Of a DNA stretch of 64,000 bases, positions 1,263 through 58,286 are shown piece by piece. Each line of letters begins with the position of its first letter. The first letter of the stretch is position 1. The position numbers and the translations under genes are program-made. Below the pieces are notes generated by a model. It did not search any database. It was not told the DNA's origin and worked only from the letters and a program-made list of their open reading frames with translations. The stretch comes from Saprospiraceae bacterium. GTDB taxonomy: Bacteria > Bacteroidota > Bacteroidia > Chitinophagales > Saprospiraceae. The stretch spans positions 77,166-141,165 of the forward strand of contig JALHQW010000001.1 in the NCBI GenBank assembly GCA_022841745.1. Reading direction: 5' to 3'.

Positions 1263-2363
1263 TTATATCCCCAACCGCTTCCGAATATCCGTCGGCACAG
1301 CATCCTTGTGTACCATAATGCCCACCGTTTTCAGCCTGAAATAAGGCTCCGACATATAGACATAGCCAGAATAAGGGCTGATTTCGCCCCAAGAGTTTTT
1401 TACATAAAAATAGGTCGTGCCTTGTTGGTCCTTGGCCGTGCCAGTGACATGCATGAGGTGGTCATCGGTTGTGGAGAAATTCGTAAAGGTTTCTTGCCGA
1501 AGTGCCTGCGTCACAGCCACCTCTTCATCGGGTTTCGTGAAAATATCTTCCCGTTTTTCATTCACCGGCAACACGGCGATGCCCTTGCTGCCAGAGAATC
1601 CTTTTTCGCTCACGTCACCGTCCCAGGCCACACTATAACCCTTTGAGATAGCGTGTTTCGTGATAGTCACGAGTTCGGTAAACGGCACATTGTAGTAGCT
1701 GCCATTCGACCAGTTGTCGGGTATTTCCAAGATCATTTGCTGGTCGAAAGGGTGGTGGGTGTAGGAGGTAAAGCTGATATAATCTGATGGATTGATGCCC
1801 AAGGTGGCTGCATAGGATTTAGGGGTGAACTCCTTGCCGTTGACGGTGAACTTCTCAGGTGCATCGCCCATATAGGCATCCAAAATGCCATCAACGCCAG
1901 CAACCCATTTGCTGCTGGGCTTTTTTTGCTGGGTGATAACATCCAGCATTCCTTTCAAGCCAACTTCCATTTCCGAATGGTCGTGCATGAAGTCGCCTGG
2001 CAGCTTGCCGCTGTAGACCGATTCCGGCACAGCTCCTGCTTCTACATAGGCCCTAATCACATCATGGGAAAGACCGCCCTGACCAAACTGCGCTTTGCCT
2101 TGCCGATACACATAGTTCTTGGACTTGTCCAAGAAGATTTGCCGAACGAAGTACATCTCCGAAAGGTCATACTCCTCTTTTTTTCCCATTCGAATCAGTT
2201 CAGATTCCAAGAAAGAAGAAGTGGCATAACTCCAGCACGTACCCGTGTTTTGTTGGTTTTTAACGGAAGTACAATTGCAGTCATTTGTAATCGTGAACTG
2301 ATATTGGGCATGCGCAACGAAGGTTGTCAAAAATGCCAGGGAAAGGAAAAATGCTTTTTTCAT
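1263..2363 (-). CDS. secreted C1B cysteine protease (bleomycin hydrolase/PepC-like)
   Basis: Papain-fold aminopeptidase-type cysteine protease. Residues 1-20 form a signal peptide ending in AHAQ, so the enzyme is exported, unlike cytosolic PepC. The catalytic triad is visible: C43 in GTCWSYATSSF, H302 in DDHLM and N323 in VKNSWGE. At 366 residues it is shorter than the usual 440-450 of bleomycin hydrolase, consistent with the smaller secreted Bacteroidota branch. Its start codon is only about 20 bases from a seven-copy palindromic array that separates it from the upstream sugar kinase gene, leaving little room for its own promoter. Substrate unknown. Confidence 0.88.
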   Translation of the reverse strand: MKKAFFLSLAFLTTFVAHAQYQFTITNDCNCTSVKNQQNTGTCWSYATSSFLESELIRMGKKEEYDLSEMYFVRQIFLDKSKNYVYRQGKAQFGQGGLSHDVIRAYVEAGAVPESVYSGKLPGDFMHDHSEMEVGLKGMLDVITQQKKPSSKWVAGVDGILDAYMGDAPEKFTVNGKEFTPKSYAATLGINPSDYISFTSYTHHPFDQQMILEIPDNWSNGSYYNVPFTELVTITKHAISKGYSVAWDGDVSEKGFSGSKGIAVLPVNEKREDIFTKPDEEVAVTQALRQETFTNFSTTDDHLMHVTGTAKDQQGTTYFYVKNSWGEISPYSGYVYMSEPYFRLKTVGIMVHKDAVPTDIRKRLGI

Positions 2364-2382
2364 GCTATTTTAAGTTGAGAAT

Positions 2383-2704
2383 GAAAGTCAGGCGGTGACT
2401 CGAAGTCACCGCTTGACATGGTTCAAGAGTGAAAGTCAGGCGGTGACTCGAAGTCACCGCTCGACATGGTTCAAGAGTGAAAGTCAGGCGGTGACTCGAA
2501 GTCACCGCTCGACAGGGTTCAAGAGTGAAAGTCAGGCGGTGACTCGAAGTCACCGCTCGACATGGTTCAAGAGTGAAAGTCAGGCGGTGACTCGAAGTCA
2601 CCGCTTGACATGGTTCAAGAGTGAAAGTCAGGCGGTGACTCGAAGACACCGCTTGACATGGTTCAAGAGTGAAAGTCAGGCGGTGACTCGAAGTCACCGC
2701 CTGA
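2383..2704. repeat. seven-copy 48-bp palindromic tandem array (family 1)
   Basis: A 48-base unit begins at 2383, 2431, 2479, 2527, 2575, 2623 and 2671. Each unit contains an inverted repeat with arms GGCGGTGACT and AGTCACCGCC around the loop CGA; the last copy extends the arms outward to GTCA/TGAC. The remainder of the unit is the constant spacer ATGGTTCAAGAGTGAAA with one or two changes. The array starts 20 bases from the protease ATG and ends 7 bases from the sugar kinase stop. Open reading frames through it are artefacts of a 48-base (16-codon) period. A related palindrome occurs inside ggt at 47190-47224. Confidence 0.95.
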
Positions 2705-2710
2705 CTAATT

Positions 2711-3652
2711 TCACAAGTCTTTGTAAATCAGGCTTTTGTCCACATTTTCCTGCAAAGGGCCAAAATGCCCAATCTTGATTTCGGCCATGCTGCGACCTGC
2801 CTTTGCACAGTCAAGGGGGCTATGCCCATCCAGCCAAGCAGTTAAGAAGCCGGACCAAAAAGCATCGCCAGCACCTGTGGTGTCCTTTACATTTACTTGG
2901 CGGGCCTGCAAAAATTCACCTTTTTTGCTGTCCGCAACGTACGCACCGTCGCCACCCATGGTAACACAAACCAGCGAGGCGCCCATTTTGATGAAAAATT
3001 GCGCAGCAAACTCGGCGCTTTCAAAAGGGCTGCCGTAAAGCCGTTCCCAATCCACTTCACTGACCTTCACGATAGCGCCAAGGTTGCAAAATTCGGCAAC
3101 GAATTTTCGGGGGTCTTCCCGGTCGGGCCAGGTTTTCGGGGCGTAATTCGCATCAATACTTAACTGGCAACCCAGTTCCACAGCACGTCGGGCAGCTTTC
3201 ATGATAATAGTTTGCCCAGGTTTTTTGCCCAAACCGAAACAGGTCGTATGGAAAATGGAGGTTTGCCGCAACCTTTCATCGGGAAGTTGGTTGCCTGAAA
3301 TGCGGGCATCTGCCAGTCGGTACGCTTCAAAATTGGCAACTGCTTTTGTTCGGGTGACAAGGATGAGGGTCGTTGGAGCGGCTACCTGCCTAACCAAGGA
3401 GCAATCAACGCCCGTCTTTTTGACGAAGTCAACCAAAAAACTACCCATATCGTCATGTCCGACACTGGCCACTAGGCTGGTGTTGTTTCCAAGGCGAGCC
3501 ATATTCATGCAAAGATTGGCGGGGCTGCCGCCCATGTGGCGTTCAAAAGAATTGGCTTCTTCCAAGGATTCTGCATAGCCACTGCTGATAAAATCAACCA
3601 ACAATTCTCCAGCACATAGTATGTCATAATGGCGTCCTCGACGATTTTTCAT
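2711..3652 (-). CDS. PfkB-family carbohydrate kinase (fructokinase-like)
   Basis: Ribokinase/PfkB-fold kinase that phosphorylates a sugar, probably fructose, using ATP. The N-terminal sugar-binding signature GGSPANLCMNMARLG lies near residues 41-55 and the C-terminal PfkB signature DTTGAGDAFWSGF at 257-269, with D263 as catalytic base and the anion hole in TGAG. Length 313 is normal. The gene is divergent from glpD, with about 80 bases between the two starts, and its stop abuts the 48-bp palindromic array. Exact sugar specificity (fructose, ketodeoxygluconate or ribose) cannot be fixed from the sequence; fructokinase is the best guess from overall similarity. Confidence 0.85.
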   Translation of the reverse strand: MKNRRGRHYDILCAGELLVDFISSGYAESLEEANSFERHMGGSPANLCMNMARLGNNTSLVASVGHDDMGSFLVDFVKKTGVDCSLVRQVAAPTTLILVTRTKAVANFEAYRLADARISGNQLPDERLRQTSIFHTTCFGLGKKPGQTIIMKAARRAVELGCQLSIDANYAPKTWPDREDPRKFVAEFCNLGAIVKVSEVDWERLYGSPFESAEFAAQFFIKMGASLVCVTMGGDGAYVADSKKGEFLQARQVNVKDTTGAGDAFWSGFLTAWLDGHSPLDCAKAGRSMAEIKIGHFGPLQENVDKSLIYKDL

Positions 3653-39343: not shown

Positions 39344-39982
39344 ATGAATTCAACAGAGCGCAAGTCACATTGGGACACCGTTTTTCAAACCCAAAAGCTC
39401 ACTGAAGTATCGTGGTACCAGGCCAAGCCCGATATTTCTTTGGACTACCTGCATGGTTTCAACTTGCCGAAGGACGCCAAAATCATTGACGTGGGCGGCG
39501 GCGACAGCCTGCTGGTGGACTACCTCATTGCCGAAGGCTACGGAGACGTTACTGTTCTGGACATTTCTGAAAAAGCCCTAGAACGGTCTAAGACAAGGAT
39601 TGGTAAAGTCGCTGCCGCTAAGGTGAAATGGGTGGTTTCTGACGCCGCCGCTTTTCAACCTGCGGAAAAGTACGACTTCTGGCACGACCGGGCAGCCTTC
39701 CACTTTTTTACCGAAGAAGCCGAGATTTTGAAATACATCAGCATAGTGCAACAATCGGTAAAGCCGGGTGGCTACCTCGTGCTTGGGACCTTTTCGGAAA
39801 ACGGCCCTGAGAAATGTTCTGGCCTGCCCGTGAAGCAATACAGTGAAGTGGCGATGAAAGAGCGCTTAAAGGAGTTTTTTGAAAAAGTAAAATGCCTGAC
39901 CGTGAAGCACTTGACGCCGAGCGAGAAGGTGCAGGAGTTTATTTTTTGTGGGTTCAGGCGGGTGGGTAACACGGTCTGCTAG
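39344..39982 (+). CDS. class I SAM-dependent methyltransferase, small-molecule type
   Basis: 212 residues with a Rossmann-like methyltransferase core: the SAM loop IIDVGGGDSLLVDYLI, the acidic residue of VLDISEKALE, VVSDAAAF and HDRAAFHFF. The opening HWDTVFQTQKLTEVSWYQAKP is shared with a Bacteroidota family of unknown substrate. The start at the ATG 39344 follows a purine-rich leader; the frame is open to 39332. The C-terminus ends GNTVC and its TAG lies inside the first REP palindrome (39966 on), so the last few residues derive from the repeat. Placed after SQR, it might act on a thiol or sulfide, but that is inference. Confidence 0.8.
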   Translation: MNSTERKSHWDTVFQTQKLTEVSWYQAKPDISLDYLHGFNLPKDAKIIDVGGGDSLLVDYLIAEGYGDVTVLDISEKALERSKTRIGKVAAAKVKWVVSDAAAFQPAEKYDFWHDRAAFHFFTEEAEILKYISIVQQSVKPGGYLVLGTFSENGPEKCSGLPVKQYSEVAMKERLKEFFEKVKCLTVKHLTPSEKVQEFIFCGFRRVGNTVC

Positions 39983-40138
39983 ACCGTGCTTTTACACTTC
40001 CCATGTAAGCAGGGATTCTTTCTTGGGAAAGCACGGACTGGCAGTCCGTGTTACGGGCGCACGGACTGGCAGTCCGTGTTACGGGCGCACGGACTAGCAG
40101 TCCGTGTTACGGGTGCACGGACTAGCAGTCCGTGTTAC
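39966..40138. repeat. left REP block flanking the RAYT gene
   Basis: One forward REP (GTAA at 39966-39969, then arms CACGGTCTG/CAGACCGTG with a TAG in the loop) is followed by a spacer and then four inverted REPs at 40031, 40059, 40087 and 40115 in a 28-base tandem period. Each has arms CACGGACT and AGTCCGTG and ends TTAC, the complement of GTAA. The last copy contains the stop codon of the RAYT gene. Confidence 0.95.
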
Positions 40139-40776
40139 GGAGCGTAAGTTTCAAACTCAGGATGAAGAAAACTGAGTTTCCAATCCGACCAATGATTGCA
40201 AAGGCCGGGTTTAACAGGGTTGTTCAAGTTGTAACGAATCCAATGGCCAAGTTCATCACGGTTCCGAATGAGGTGGTCGTAAGATTCTTGCATCCAAAAT
40301 TTTTCACCGACCCTATCCAATATTAGATTAGCTTCGGTGCCTGTATATGTTTTGATAGATTGAAGAATCCGAAACAACGGTTTCTGGATTTTGTATAGGA
40401 TGGTGTGGACATGATTCGGCATGATGGTCACATTGATGAGCTTATAACGCCCCTCTTTGTGCCAATGTACAAAACTGTCAAACACCAATTGACCAATATC
40501 AGCCTGGCCAAGATAAGTGGGACCAAAACTAGCATTATCAAGCAACTCATCGAATTTGCCATAATACAGTATTCGCTCCTTTCGCACAGCCTCGTTAAGC
40601 AGTTTGGCATCACTGATGGTTTTGGAAAGTTCTTTTTTATTTTGTTCGTATTCTGACTTTAGTCGAATTACAACTTCTTTGGGCAGACTGCCCTCCAACC
40701 TGAAACTAATGTTGAATACGCCATTTTCTGGTTGCCTATGAGGAAGGTTGCGGCGGTAATGGGTAGGTTCGGTCAT
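40135..40776 (-). CDS. REP-associated tyrosine transposase (RAYT, IS200/IS605-like Y1 family)
   Basis: 213-residue HUH-type single-strand DNA transposase. The N-terminus YRRNLPHRQPENGVFNISFRL is the typical RAYT/TnpA_REP opening. The HUH motif is H122-V-H124 in IMPNHVHTIL, and the nucleophile is Y166 in KFWMQESYDH, followed by the helix NRDELGHWIRYNLNNPVKPGL. All catalytic residues are present, so the enzyme looks intact. I use the ATG at 40776 rather than the frame start at 40851, since the preceding region belongs to the REP block. The TAA stop lies in the terminal REP (40135-40138). Flanking REP blocks on both sides are consistent with the enzyme mobilising these palindromes, which is inference. 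Confidence 0.92.
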   Translation of the reverse strand: MTEPTHYRRNLPHRQPENGVFNISFRLEGSLPKEVVIRLKSEYEQNKKELSKTISDAKLLNEAVRKERILYYGKFDELLDNASFGPTYLGQADIGQLVFDSFVHWHKEGRYKLINVTIMPNHVHTILYKIQKPLFRILQSIKTYTGTEANLILDRVGEKFWMQESYDHLIRNRDELGHWIRYNLNNPVKPGLCNHWSDWKLSFLHPEFETYAP

Positions 40777-40812
40777 AGTATTTGATTGAAATATTGAGTA
40801 GGTGCTGGTCAA

Positions 40813-41623
40813 GTAACATGGTTTGCAGGGCCGTGGGTAGTGACGTAACACGGTCTGCCAGACCGTGCTTCCAAACTTCCTAAGTTAACTGGGATTCGTT
40901 CTTGTGAAAGCACGGACTAGCAGTCCGTGTTACGGGGCCAGTAACACGGTCTGCCAGACCGTGCTTCCAAACTTCCCAAGTTAACTGGGATTCGTTCTTG
41001 TGAAAGCACGGACTAGCAGTCCGTGTTACGGGGCCAGTAACACGGTCTGCCAGGCCGTGCTTCCAAACTTCCCAAGTTAACTGGGATTCGTTCTTGTGAA
41101 AGCACGGACTAGCAGTCCGTGTTACGGGGCCAGTAACACGGTCTGCCAGACCGTGCTTCCAAACTTCCCAAGTTAACTGGGATTCGTTCTTGGGAAAGCA
41201 CGGACTAGCAGTTCGTGTTACGGGGCCAGTAACACGGTCTGCCAGGCCGTGCTTCCAAACTTCCCAAGTTAGCTGGGATTCGTTCTTGGGAAAGCACGGA
41301 CTAGCAGTTCGTGTTACGGGGCCAGTAACACGGTCTGCCAGACCGTGCTTCCACACTTCCCAAGTTAGCTGGGATTCGTTCTTGTGAAAGCACGGACTAG
41401 CAGTTCGTGTTACGGGGCCAGTAACACGGTCTGCCAGACCGTGCTTCCAAACTTCCCAAGTTAGCTGGGATTCGTTCTTGTGAAAGCACGGAGTAGCACT
41501 CCGTATTACTGCCAGTCCGTACTACTTGAGACAAATTTAACCGCAAAGACCAATTTTCACAAAATGTAAAAAATAATGGACAAGCTGGGAAGTGCAAAAG
41601 CACGGACTAGCAGTCCGTGTTAC
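40813..41623. repeat. right REP array: seven 96-bp dimers plus degenerate outer copies
   Basis: Seven units begin with GTAA at 40845, 40941, 41037, 41133, 41229, 41325 and 41421, period 96. Each unit holds a forward palindrome (arms CACGGTCTG/CAGACCGTG), a spacer with its own small inverted repeat (TCCCA/TGGGA around a GTTAAC core) and an inverted palindrome (arms CACGGACT/AGTCCGTG) ending TTAC. Degenerate copies flank the array at 40813-40836 and 41486-41509. A final inverted copy at 41600-41623 abuts the molybdopterin gene. Reading frames through the array are artefacts of the 96-base (32-codon) period. It contains no unique spacers, so it is not a CRISPR. Confidence 0.95.
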
Positions 41624-46459: not shown

Positions 46460-46583
46460 GTAACACGGACTGCCAGTCCGTACTTTTGACGTAACACGGA
46501 CTGCCAGTCCGTGCTTTTGTAGGAACAAAAAATAGGTCTTGTTAAATGAAAGGGGGGAAGCACGGTCTGGCAGACCGTGTTAC
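46460..46583. repeat. cluster of three REPs between ggt and the GNAT-nitrilase gene
   Basis: Forward REPs at 46460-46483 and 46491-46514 (GTAA then arms CACGGACT/AGTCCGT), and an inverted copy at 46560-46583 with arms CACGGTCTG/CAGACCGTG ending TTAC. The inverted copy holds the TAA stop codon of ggt at 46580-46582. Confidence 0.93.
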
Positions 46584-48463
46584 CAACCAATCCCATAATC
46601 CTCTCCATGGTTGCTGCTGCCGCCCCACATCGTACCGTGGGCATGGTCGAAGAAAATGGCATTGATGGGGCCGCTGGTGCGGTCTTGGTAGTTGATTTTA
46701 TAGCCCATCTTAACCAGTTCCTTGCGCACCCAATCGGGCATGGCGCTGTTGAGGGTGAGACTGCCGGGCTTGCGCTCGTGATCGCCGAAGCTGGCGTACA
46801 TCTGGTAGGTCTTGAAGCTGGGTGCCTCACTGGCCTCCTGCACTGTCATTCCGAACTCTATCATATTGAGGAAAAACTGAAGGATGCACTGGTCTTGCTC
46901 ATCGCCGCCCTGCATCCCAAAGGCCATCAGCGGCTTGCCATCTTTCATGGCAAGACTCGGCGTAAGCGTCACCCGTGGCTGCTTGCCGGGGGCCAGCACG
47001 TTGAACGGGTTTTCCTTTTCATCCAAAACGAAGGACTGCATCCGCTGGCTCATGCCGAAGCCCGTGTTGCCAGCGATGCAGGCGGGAATCCAGCCGCCGC
47101 TGGGGGTGACGGACACGACCCAGCCGTCGGCGTCTGCGGCTTCGATGGTGGTGGTACCGAGGGCGAAGTCGTGGAGGAACTTTTCGTCCAAGTCAGGCGG
47201 TGACTTCAAGTCACCGCCTGACTTCGGGGCTATGCTCCCATTCCCCCAATCCTCCAACAAGTGCAGGAACGGGTTCTTTCCATTTTCGAAAGGGTACGGG
47301 TCGCCCGGTCCAGCCTTGGCGTCGTTTCGGTCGGGGTTGATTTCCTTGCTACGCAATTTGGCGTACTCCTTCGACAGCAGCCCCTTGATAGGCTCGACAG
47401 GCGGCACGGCAGGGTCGCCATAGTAGAAGTCCCGGTCGGCAAAGGCAAGGTTCATCGCCTGATAAACTGTGTGGATGTAGCGGGCCGAGTTATAGCCCAT
47501 GCCTTTAAGGTCGAAGTTTTCGAGGATGTTCAGGGCCTGCAGCAGGGCGGGGCCTTGCGTCCATGCTTGGAGTTTATACACCTCGATGCCTCGATATGTC
47601 GTCATGGTCGGCTCCTCGATTTTCACTTTCCAGTTGGCAAGGTCGGCCTCGGTAATCAGCCCGCCCTGTTCCTGGCAGCCTCGTACAAATTCCTTAGCGA
47701 TGTCGCCCCGGTAGCAGCGCTCATAAGCAGCGTATATGGCTTCCTTCCTGTTTTTGCCTGCGGCAATGACTGCCCGTTCTGCTTCCACTAATTTGCGAAG
47801 CGTGGCCAGCAAGTCTTTTTGCACAAAGACCTCCCCAGCCTCTGGCGCTTCCCAAGCATTGCCGAGGTGCGGAAGGAAGACCTTCTTGGAATACGGCCAT
47901 TGCTTAATTTCCGCCTTGTTCCGCTCAATGGCATTGGCCGTCTGCGCTTCGATGGGGTAGCCTTCGGCCAATTGCATGGCAGGGGCAAGCACCTGTTCGA
48001 GACTCATCGTTCCGTATTCGGCAAGCATGGTCATCAGTCCGCCAGGAGTGCCGGGTGTTACAGCGGCCAGTGGGCCAAACTCAGGCGGGTATTTCATTCC
48101 TTTTTGCCTGAAAAACTCAGTGGTAGCGCCCGTTGGGGCCACGCCGAGCGCATTGATGGCGATGACTTTTTTCAGCTTAGGATGGTATATGAGCGCCTGC
48201 GTTTCACCGCCCCAACTCAGCACGTCCCACATGGTACAAGTAGCGGCTAGCATGGCACAGGAGGCGTCCACGGCATTGCCGCCTTGCTGAAATATAGCTG
48301 CTCCTGCTGTGGCAGCCAATGGCTTGCCCGTTATGGCCATCCAGTGACGGGCATGTAGCGGTGGCTTCTGCGTGGTTACGGGCAAGTTGTTGAAGGATTG
48401 GGCGGTGGCGAGGTGGTGCCAGCCCATTGCGAAGCAAAGAAGGATGAAAATGATATTCCTCAT
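46580..48463 (-). CDS. ggt: gamma-glutamyltransferase
   Basis: Secreted or periplasmic Ntn-hydrolase that cleaves gamma-glutamyl bonds (glutathione) and self-processes into two subunits. 627 residues with a signal peptide (MRNIIFILLCFAMGWHHLATAQ). Substrate-binding and core blocks are FQQGGNAVDAS, WGGETQALIY and PGTPGGLMTMLAEYG. The autocleavage nucleophile is T437 in LGTTTIEAADADG. Residues about 414-425 (KSGGDLKSPPDL) are encoded by a 35-base perfect palindrome of repeat family 1, inserted in frame about 12 residues before the catalytic threonine. The ATG at 48463 is preferred over the frame at 48556. The TAA is supplied by the adjoining REP. Confidence 0.93.
   Translation of the reverse strand: MRNIIFILLCFAMGWHHLATAQSFNNLPVTTQKPPLHARHWMAITGKPLAATAGAAIFQQGGNAVDASCAMLAATCTMWDVLSWGGETQALIYHPKLKKVIAINALGVAPTGATTEFFRQKGMKYPPEFGPLAAVTPGTPGGLMTMLAEYGTMSLEQVLAPAMQLAEGYPIEAQTANAIERNKAEIKQWPYSKKVFLPHLGNAWEAPEAGEVFVQKDLLATLRKLVEAERAVIAAGKNRKEAIYAAYERCYRGDIAKEFVRGCQEQGGLITEADLANWKVKIEEPTMTTYRGIEVYKLQAWTQGPALLQALNILENFDLKGMGYNSARYIHTVYQAMNLAFADRDFYYGDPAVPPVEPIKGLLSKEYAKLRSKEINPDRNDAKAGPGDPYPFENGKNPFLHLLEDWGNGSIAPKSGGDLKSPPDLDEKFLHDFALGTTTIEAADADGWVVSVTPSGGWIPACIAGNTGFGMSQRMQSFVLDEKENPFNVLAPGKQPRVTLTPSLAMKDGKPLMAFGMQGGDEQDQCILQFFLNMIEFGMTVQEASEAPSFKTYQMYASFGDHERKPGSLTLNSAMPDWVRKELVKMGYKINYQDRTSGPINAIFFDHAHGTMWGGSSNHGEDYGIGW
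47190..47224. repeat. 35-base perfect palindrome inside ggt (family 1 copy)
   Basis: Arms AAGTCAGGCGGTGACTT and AAGTCACCGCCTGACTT around a single C on the plus strand. It shares the core GTCAGGCGGTGACT with the 48-bp array at 2383-2704, more than 44 kb away. Confidence 0.95.
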
Positions 48464-48583
48464 GTCAAGCGGATTTTTGTCAATGACGATGAGGGCGAAA
48501 GGTAAGGAATCCTTTTGTATCCTTGCACAACTGGTAATTGCTGGACAGCTTTTCATTAATTCCTGTTGTGCTTTGTATTTCTC

Positions 48584-58099: not shown

Positions 58100-58286
58100 C
58101 CCTCATGGCGTGGACAGTTCCCTAAAGGGATGACAAAATGAGGAGTGCCCTCGTGGCGTGGACGGATCCCTAAAGGGAAGACAAAAGGTGAAGAGCCCTC
58201 ATGGCGTGGACAGTTCCCTAAAGGGATGACAAAATGAGGAGTGCCCTCGTGGCGTGGACGGATCCCTAAAGGGATGACAAAAAGGG
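58100..58286. repeat. four-copy 48-bp direct array of repeat family 3
   Basis: Units start at 58100, 58148, 58196 and 58244, each reading CCCTC(A/G)TGGCGTGGAC, then a 6-base variable core, then CCCTAAAGGGA(T/A)GACAAAA. Alternate copies differ at the variable core, so the array is a duplication of a two-unit block. It fills the interval between the convergent GH127 and lipoprotein genes. Confidence 0.9.

Follow-up and report, generated by a model that had tools for sequence, protein, structure and literature searches.

A tandem palindrome array between a sugar kinase gene and a C1-type protease gene belongs to a dispersed palindrome family in a Saprospiraceae genome

The window, the whole stretch of 64,000 nucleotides analysed here, comes from the contig JALHQW010000001.1 of a Saprospiraceae bacterium (assembly GCA_022841745.1). 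Close to one of its ends, a gene for a PfkB-family sugar kinase is followed, in the same direction, by a gene for a C1-type cysteine protease (Table 1). The 347 bases between the stop codon of the kinase (2711–2713) and the ATG of the protease are almost wholly occupied by seven tandem units of 48 bp. The presence of a seven-unit palindromic array at this place, as given in the original prediction, was confirmed by Tandem Repeats Finder (2378–2705, period 48, 6.8 copies, 97% matches) and by a repeat search of the window, in which the spacing was uniform and each unit measured 48 bases from 2378 onwards. Its description of the units as near-identical is accurate at the level of 97% matches, but several distinct point variants are found among the units. 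The distance from the array to the ATG is indeed small, but amounts to 22–23 bases rather than the 20 initially reported, the first hairpin starting from 2386 and the ATG lying at 2363. Units 1 to 6 are imperfect palindromes, whereas unit 7, which lies 4 bases from the kinase stop, is perfect. The energy of unit 7 folded as a single RNA hairpin was −27.9 kcal/mol, versus −16.9 to −20.9 kcal/mol for the five others that were folded (unit 4 was not), and this greater stability might matter for the RNA.

Table 1. Positions, within the window, of the kinase–protease array, its flanking genes and the single palindrome copy in the gamma-glutamyltransferase gene.
Feature	Position	Strand	Remarks
C1-type cysteine protease gene	1263..2363	-	PF03051, E 6.3e-19; PF00112, E 2.5e-11; signal-like N-terminus (signal judged by eye)
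Seven-unit array	2378..2706		48-bp units, each a palindrome and a 13-base spacer
Palindrome of unit 1	2386..2417		Closest to the protease ATG
Palindrome of unit 7	2674..2706		Closest to the kinase; only perfect palindrome of the array; 15-bp stem, 3-base loop CGA
PfkB-family sugar kinase gene	2711..3652	-	Upstream of the array; PF00294, E 5.8e-45
Gamma-glutamyltransferase gene	46580..48556	-	PF01019, E 6.3e-106; contains an in-frame palindrome copy
Single palindrome copy	47190..47224		In frame in the gamma-glutamyltransferase gene; residues KSGGDLKSPPDL, 445-456

The protease had been thought to depend either on read-through across the hairpins or on a promoter within the array. The co-directional arrangement of the two genes around a hairpin-filled gap fits the first of these possibilities, but the second was rejected. 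The −7 promoter motif of Bacteroidota is TAnnTTTG; no such motif was found in the kinase–protease gap, and the array contains no TA dinucleotide at all and cannot, therefore, hold it. A promoter scan also revealed no sigma-70-like site on the transcribed strand across the array region. No intrinsic terminator (a G+C-rich hairpin followed by a T run) was found between 2250 and 2850. The protease is probably read through from the kinase, or transcribed from a promoter of an unrecognised type. Translation of the kinase into the array was also considered and rejected, as a second in-frame stop codon lies two codons past the TGA stop.

The 35-bp core of the array, AAGTCAGGCGGTGACTnnnAGTCACCGCCTGACTT, is a member of a palindrome family dispersed in the genome. 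In the assembly (8.43 Mb in 178 contigs, draft), GCGGTGACTnnnAGTCACCGC was found at 45 sites with no more than two mismatches, and the relaxed core AGGNGGNNACTNNNAGTNNCCNCCT gave 49 matches with one mismatch allowed; the reversed-pattern control for the former and the control for the latter both yielded 0. Within the window, the relaxed core matched eight times (seven in the array and once at 47190), as against a single match in 100 first-order Markov windows combined. The alignment of 55 copies from 38 independent loci comprised 35 columns and was free of gaps (consensus AAGTCAGGCGGTGACTTnAAGTCACCGCCTGACTT).

The two arms of the palindrome vary together, remaining complementary through paired changes. 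In the alignment (43 distinct rows, 16 pairs), 94.0% of the cells pair. Cells with compensatory changes in both arms numbered 38, versus a mean of 9.8 (sd 2.5) after shuffling, a level attained in 0 of 500 shuffles, although the search patterns had fixed several stem positions, so that mainly the free columns (1–5, 9, 12, 13 and their partners) can vary, and the aligned copies are related to one another. Slid controls gave only one to five cells with both sides changed. Columns 5 and 31, for example, are paired as CG in 31 rows, UA in 10 and GC in 2, and columns 13 and 23 as GC in 32 and AU in 10. One source of these paired changes is the sub-family AGGAGGTAACT...AGTTACCTCCT. Two other measures of covariation were unremarkable: the number of pairs with changes in both members was reached in 98 of 500 shuffles, and the number of further pair types in 34 of 500. 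In five intergenic copies (L035, L038, L039, L043 and L047), the similarity continues to the right into a sequence that roughly matches TTGGGCAGCTTnCAAAC, as might be expected from the copying of a longer unit; this tail is only partly specific (27 places with up to two mismatches, versus 4 in the reversed control). Three AGGAGGTAACT copies (L120, L122 and L123) have longer flanks in common, with similar translations, and form part of a larger repeat.

At 15 of the 38 loci, the palindrome lies in frame within an ORF with a recognised domain, identified with Pfam or, for the aminotransferase and the ABC protein, from solved structures. The hosts are the gamma-glutamyltransferase of the window, HypF (an array and a second, single copy), an FGGY kinase, MutS, an aminotransferase-IV protein (array), a FAD-oxidase/Fer4 protein, an ABC ATPase (array), an APH/M23/aminotransferase-III protein, a type I restriction R-like protein, a histidine kinase, a FAD/NAD oxidoreductase, a type ISP specificity protein, a ResB/CcsA-like protein and a family 2 glycosyltransferase. 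The other 23 loci, not counted as genic, are mostly intergenic, with a few in ORFs without a Pfam family; L034, L035, L045, L046 and L049 were left out on the latter ground, and L128 because the copy lies upstream of the domain and possibly ahead of the true start. Two of the three reading frames of the palindrome can be open, one of them (S frame) with some loops only, the loop TTG creating a TGA stop in it. Eleven of the 15 genic copies are read as K(S/L)GG(D/N)..(K/E)(S/L)PP or a close variant and four as S(Q/E)xVTxSH. None is read in the frame with the constant TGA (P = 0.002 under equal frames), a bias of the type that survival would give.

The positions of these copies within the proteins look permissive. 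The gamma-glutamyltransferase copy lies just ahead of Thr 468 of the small subunit (a position taken from the alignment); since the large chain 2dbu_A aligns to residues 66–425 of the query and the small chain 2dbu_B from residue 471, the copy sits between the two chains. The HypF array precedes the Sua5/YrdC domain at residue 358, and the MutS copy comes after domain V. Some copies fall within a Pfam domain match, as in the restriction R-like protein and the FAD/NAD oxidoreductase.

Four arrays of at least three copies were found in the genome, with periods of 48, 78, 60 and 57 bp, each with its own spacer, and three of them are in frame inside genes: those of HypF (period 78 bp, six copies), the aminotransferase-IV protein (period 60 bp, four evenly spaced copies and one more at 102 bp) and the ABC ATPase (period 57 bp, three copies). 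The last two fall between segments homologous to solved chains. As each array has a spacer of its own, the arrays seem to form locally, each out of a single palindrome and the sequence next to it. In the protease array, the left flank of unit 1, TTGAGAATGAAA, resembles the spacer TCAAGAGTGAAA at 9 of 12 bases, and the spacer is not continued in the right flank past unit 7. Its period of 48 is a multiple of three despite the intergenic location; within genes such a period is forced, but here it may be due to chance, the expectation being 1 in 3. A separate tandem array with periods of 48 and 96 bp and CCCTAAAGGG cores lies at 58100–58282 of the window, and similar sequences are found beside the palindrome copies at L040, L044 and L046.

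The family is much rarer in the congeners of this bacterium. The 31-base core, with up to two mismatches, gave 38 forward matches in this genome, versus one in each of four congeners and none in the other nine of the 13; among 59 other relatives, it was found once in each of G001, G006, G008 and G011 and was absent from 55. Another 31-base pattern, searched for in a family-level sample of 298 genomes, had 34 matches in this genome, one to three in four others and none in the remaining 293. An exact pattern was found in seven stretches of named records, all titled as Saprospiraceae or Lewinellaceae MAGs. Some sites are common to different genomes: that of the second HypF copy is found also in G006 and that of the MutS copy in record DIUC01000050 (UBA6168), and an FGGY kinase has palindrome copies at two sites across three genomes. 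In another MAG (L068, 1076–2635), three palindromes are grouped at a single site of an FGGY kinase and one lies elsewhere in it; the variant GTCACGGGGTGACT is among them.

The protease is present in 12 of the 13 other congeners, and the array was absent upstream of all 12 orthologues (420 bases examined; about 195 in L080, which begins at a contig start), suggesting, on the present sample, that the array arose in this lineage. The kinase still adjoins the protease in two congeners only, with a gap of 59 bases in G006 and a short one in G011. The HypF array is likewise absent from G011 (open frame of 801 codons, versus 937 here), in which a different small palindrome, GCCAACAG...CTGTTGGC, was observed at the same place (L101). 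At the second HypF site, G011 is about 10 residues shorter than this genome, and G013, the best relative for the gamma-glutamyltransferase site, is 5 residues shorter there, whereas a palindrome copy corresponds to 12 residues. These net gains are smaller than the element, and simple insertion is thus not proven at these two single sites; replacement of a variable loop, or insertion followed by trimming, cannot be told from it. No clean empty site was found among the relatives compared at the HypF, gamma-glutamyltransferase, FGGY kinase and MutS sites.

Repeats of this kind, REP- or RPE-like, are already known, but this palindrome family is new: no account of it was found in the literature searched, and no paper on palindromic elements in Saprospiraceae was found. 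Elhai et al. reportedly described, in 2008, small dispersed repeats (SDR) in cyanobacteria, as very short repeats thought to be mobile. A mention in PMC2884548 presents the cyanobacterial SDR in the same terms; they resemble the present family as very short, presumed mobile repeats, but belong to another phylum. In PMC3733652, REPs are palindromes of 20–40 bp with many copies, occurring singly and in tandem groups with flanking DNA, some of them inside ORFs, in which REP clusters encode 43 to 82 amino acids; RAYTs are flanked by REPs, according to PMC2817692. By comparison with these descriptions, our family is similarly a short palindrome with many dispersed copies, as singles and tandem groups and partly in ORFs, but it lacks an unpaired GTAG or CGTC tag and an adjoining RAYT gene in the loci scanned, and its stem reaches 16 bp. 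Rickettsia palindromic elements (RPEs) are palindromic repeats located between genes and in frame inside unrelated genes (PMC10969869 and PMC3733652), and the present family has the same two locations, with in-frame copies inside conserved-domain genes at 15 of 38 loci. It differs, on a comparison of descriptions, in its length (35 bp, versus RPEs of about 150 bp in PMC10969869) and in its Saprospiraceae-like lineage (Bacteroidota), and it shows no tag, whereas RPE-4 and RPE-6 are presented as CGTC-tagged REPs in PMC3733652. Protein-coding palindromes are best known from Rickettsia, and their effect on proteins is called unexplored in PMC10969869. A recent expansion in a large-genome member of the Bacteroidota, with in-frame arrays and most copies absent from near relatives, would offer a way of studying the movement of such repeats and the tolerance of enzymes for added segments.

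The palindrome is dispersed throughout this genome, is far rarer in congeners and often lies in frame inside conserved enzymes. The best explanation for the protease array (with a probability of about 0.75) is, in our view, that a non-autonomous, mobile palindromic repeat of about 35 bp, which has multiplied in this lineage, accumulated here in tandem, rather than that the array is a switch specific to the protease. A single copy would have landed between the kinase and the protease after the split of this lineage from the sampled congeners; replication slippage or recombination may then have produced tandem duplicates of the palindrome and some 13 bases of its left flank, the units drifting thereafter. 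The protease would be co-transcribed with the kinase through the array, which would have at most a minor regulatory role of its own. Against the mobile-repeat reading stand the lack of a clean empty site, of a transposase gene beside the copies scanned and of any observed movement.

The array had instead been proposed to tune expression. As a tuning leader, its hairpins would damp or stabilise the kinase–protease transcript and set the level of the protease. The gap is co-directional and packed with stable hairpins (the 381-nt minus-strand RNA folds at −178.7 kcal/mol, z −14.7), and no promoter is seen after the array. However, this fold follows from the palindromes themselves and its score says nothing about use, no terminator-like site is present, the same palindrome is found at 37 other loci, both intergenic and inside coding genes (15 of the 38 family loci being in frame in genes with recognised domains), and the twelve orthologous proteases of the congeners manage without an array. 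These observations speak against the proposal, and a tuning leader is unlikely; an effect of the array on protease expression is possible but unproven, and direct evidence would be needed before the array is taken to regulate the protease. Near-identical units in tandem readily undergo slippage and the four arrays of the family differ in copy number, but phase variation, with fast changes in unit number switching protease output, is very improbable: the point differences between units indicate that the array is not freshly homogenised, and there is no sign of a promoter or frame that it would switch. An assembly artefact is hardly credible, even in a draft of 178 contigs, given that the units differ from one another, that the flanks are unique genes and that the element recurs in independent genomes, in some of them at the same positions within genes.

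The mobile-repeat reading leaves room for different modes of movement. The palindrome could be a REP proper, with a RAYT/Y1 transposase of this genome moving it in trans, a sub-mechanism that is compatible with the mobile-repeat reading. The genome has at least 10 Y1_Tnp-like genes (a PF01797 profile search gave 9 matches at E 0.001 and 13 at E 10), several of which have palindromes of their own close by, and the Y1 gene of the window stands among CGGACTnnnAGTCCG palindromes. However, none of the 13 PF01797 places is at this family, in a draft genome in which a gene may lie in a gap, and no Y1-like protein or transposase gene was found beside any copy by tblastn with nine Y1 proteins (33 loci and the window) or by profile and sequence searches (49 loci and the window); the only Y1-like match in the scanned loci is the RAYT of the window itself, which lies about 6.4 kb from the copy at 47190. 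Nor do the flanks contain a GTAG/CGTC-like tag, the information content being 0.29 bit or less at each of the 12 positions compared over the 66 flanks of 33 single copies, with a mild G/C preference at −4/−3. Movement in trans is, then, a possibility that we do not favour. It is doubtful, too, that an untagged palindrome moving without a RAYT and open in two frames settles in enzymes and grows there as in-frame arrays (up to about 136 codons added, in HypF), with the protease array as an intergenic sibling of this protein-building process.

The RAYT/Y1 transposase gene of the window is divergent (40150–40779, minus strand; PF01797 21.4 bits, under the cut-off of 23). The surrounding region (39966–41623) contains, in addition to the CGGACTnnnAGTCCG palindromes, a 28-bp array at 40031–40140 and a 96-bp array at 40845–41509. 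At L063, two Y1 transposase genes lie 2.2 kb apart, flanked by GGTTCAAGTC palindromes.
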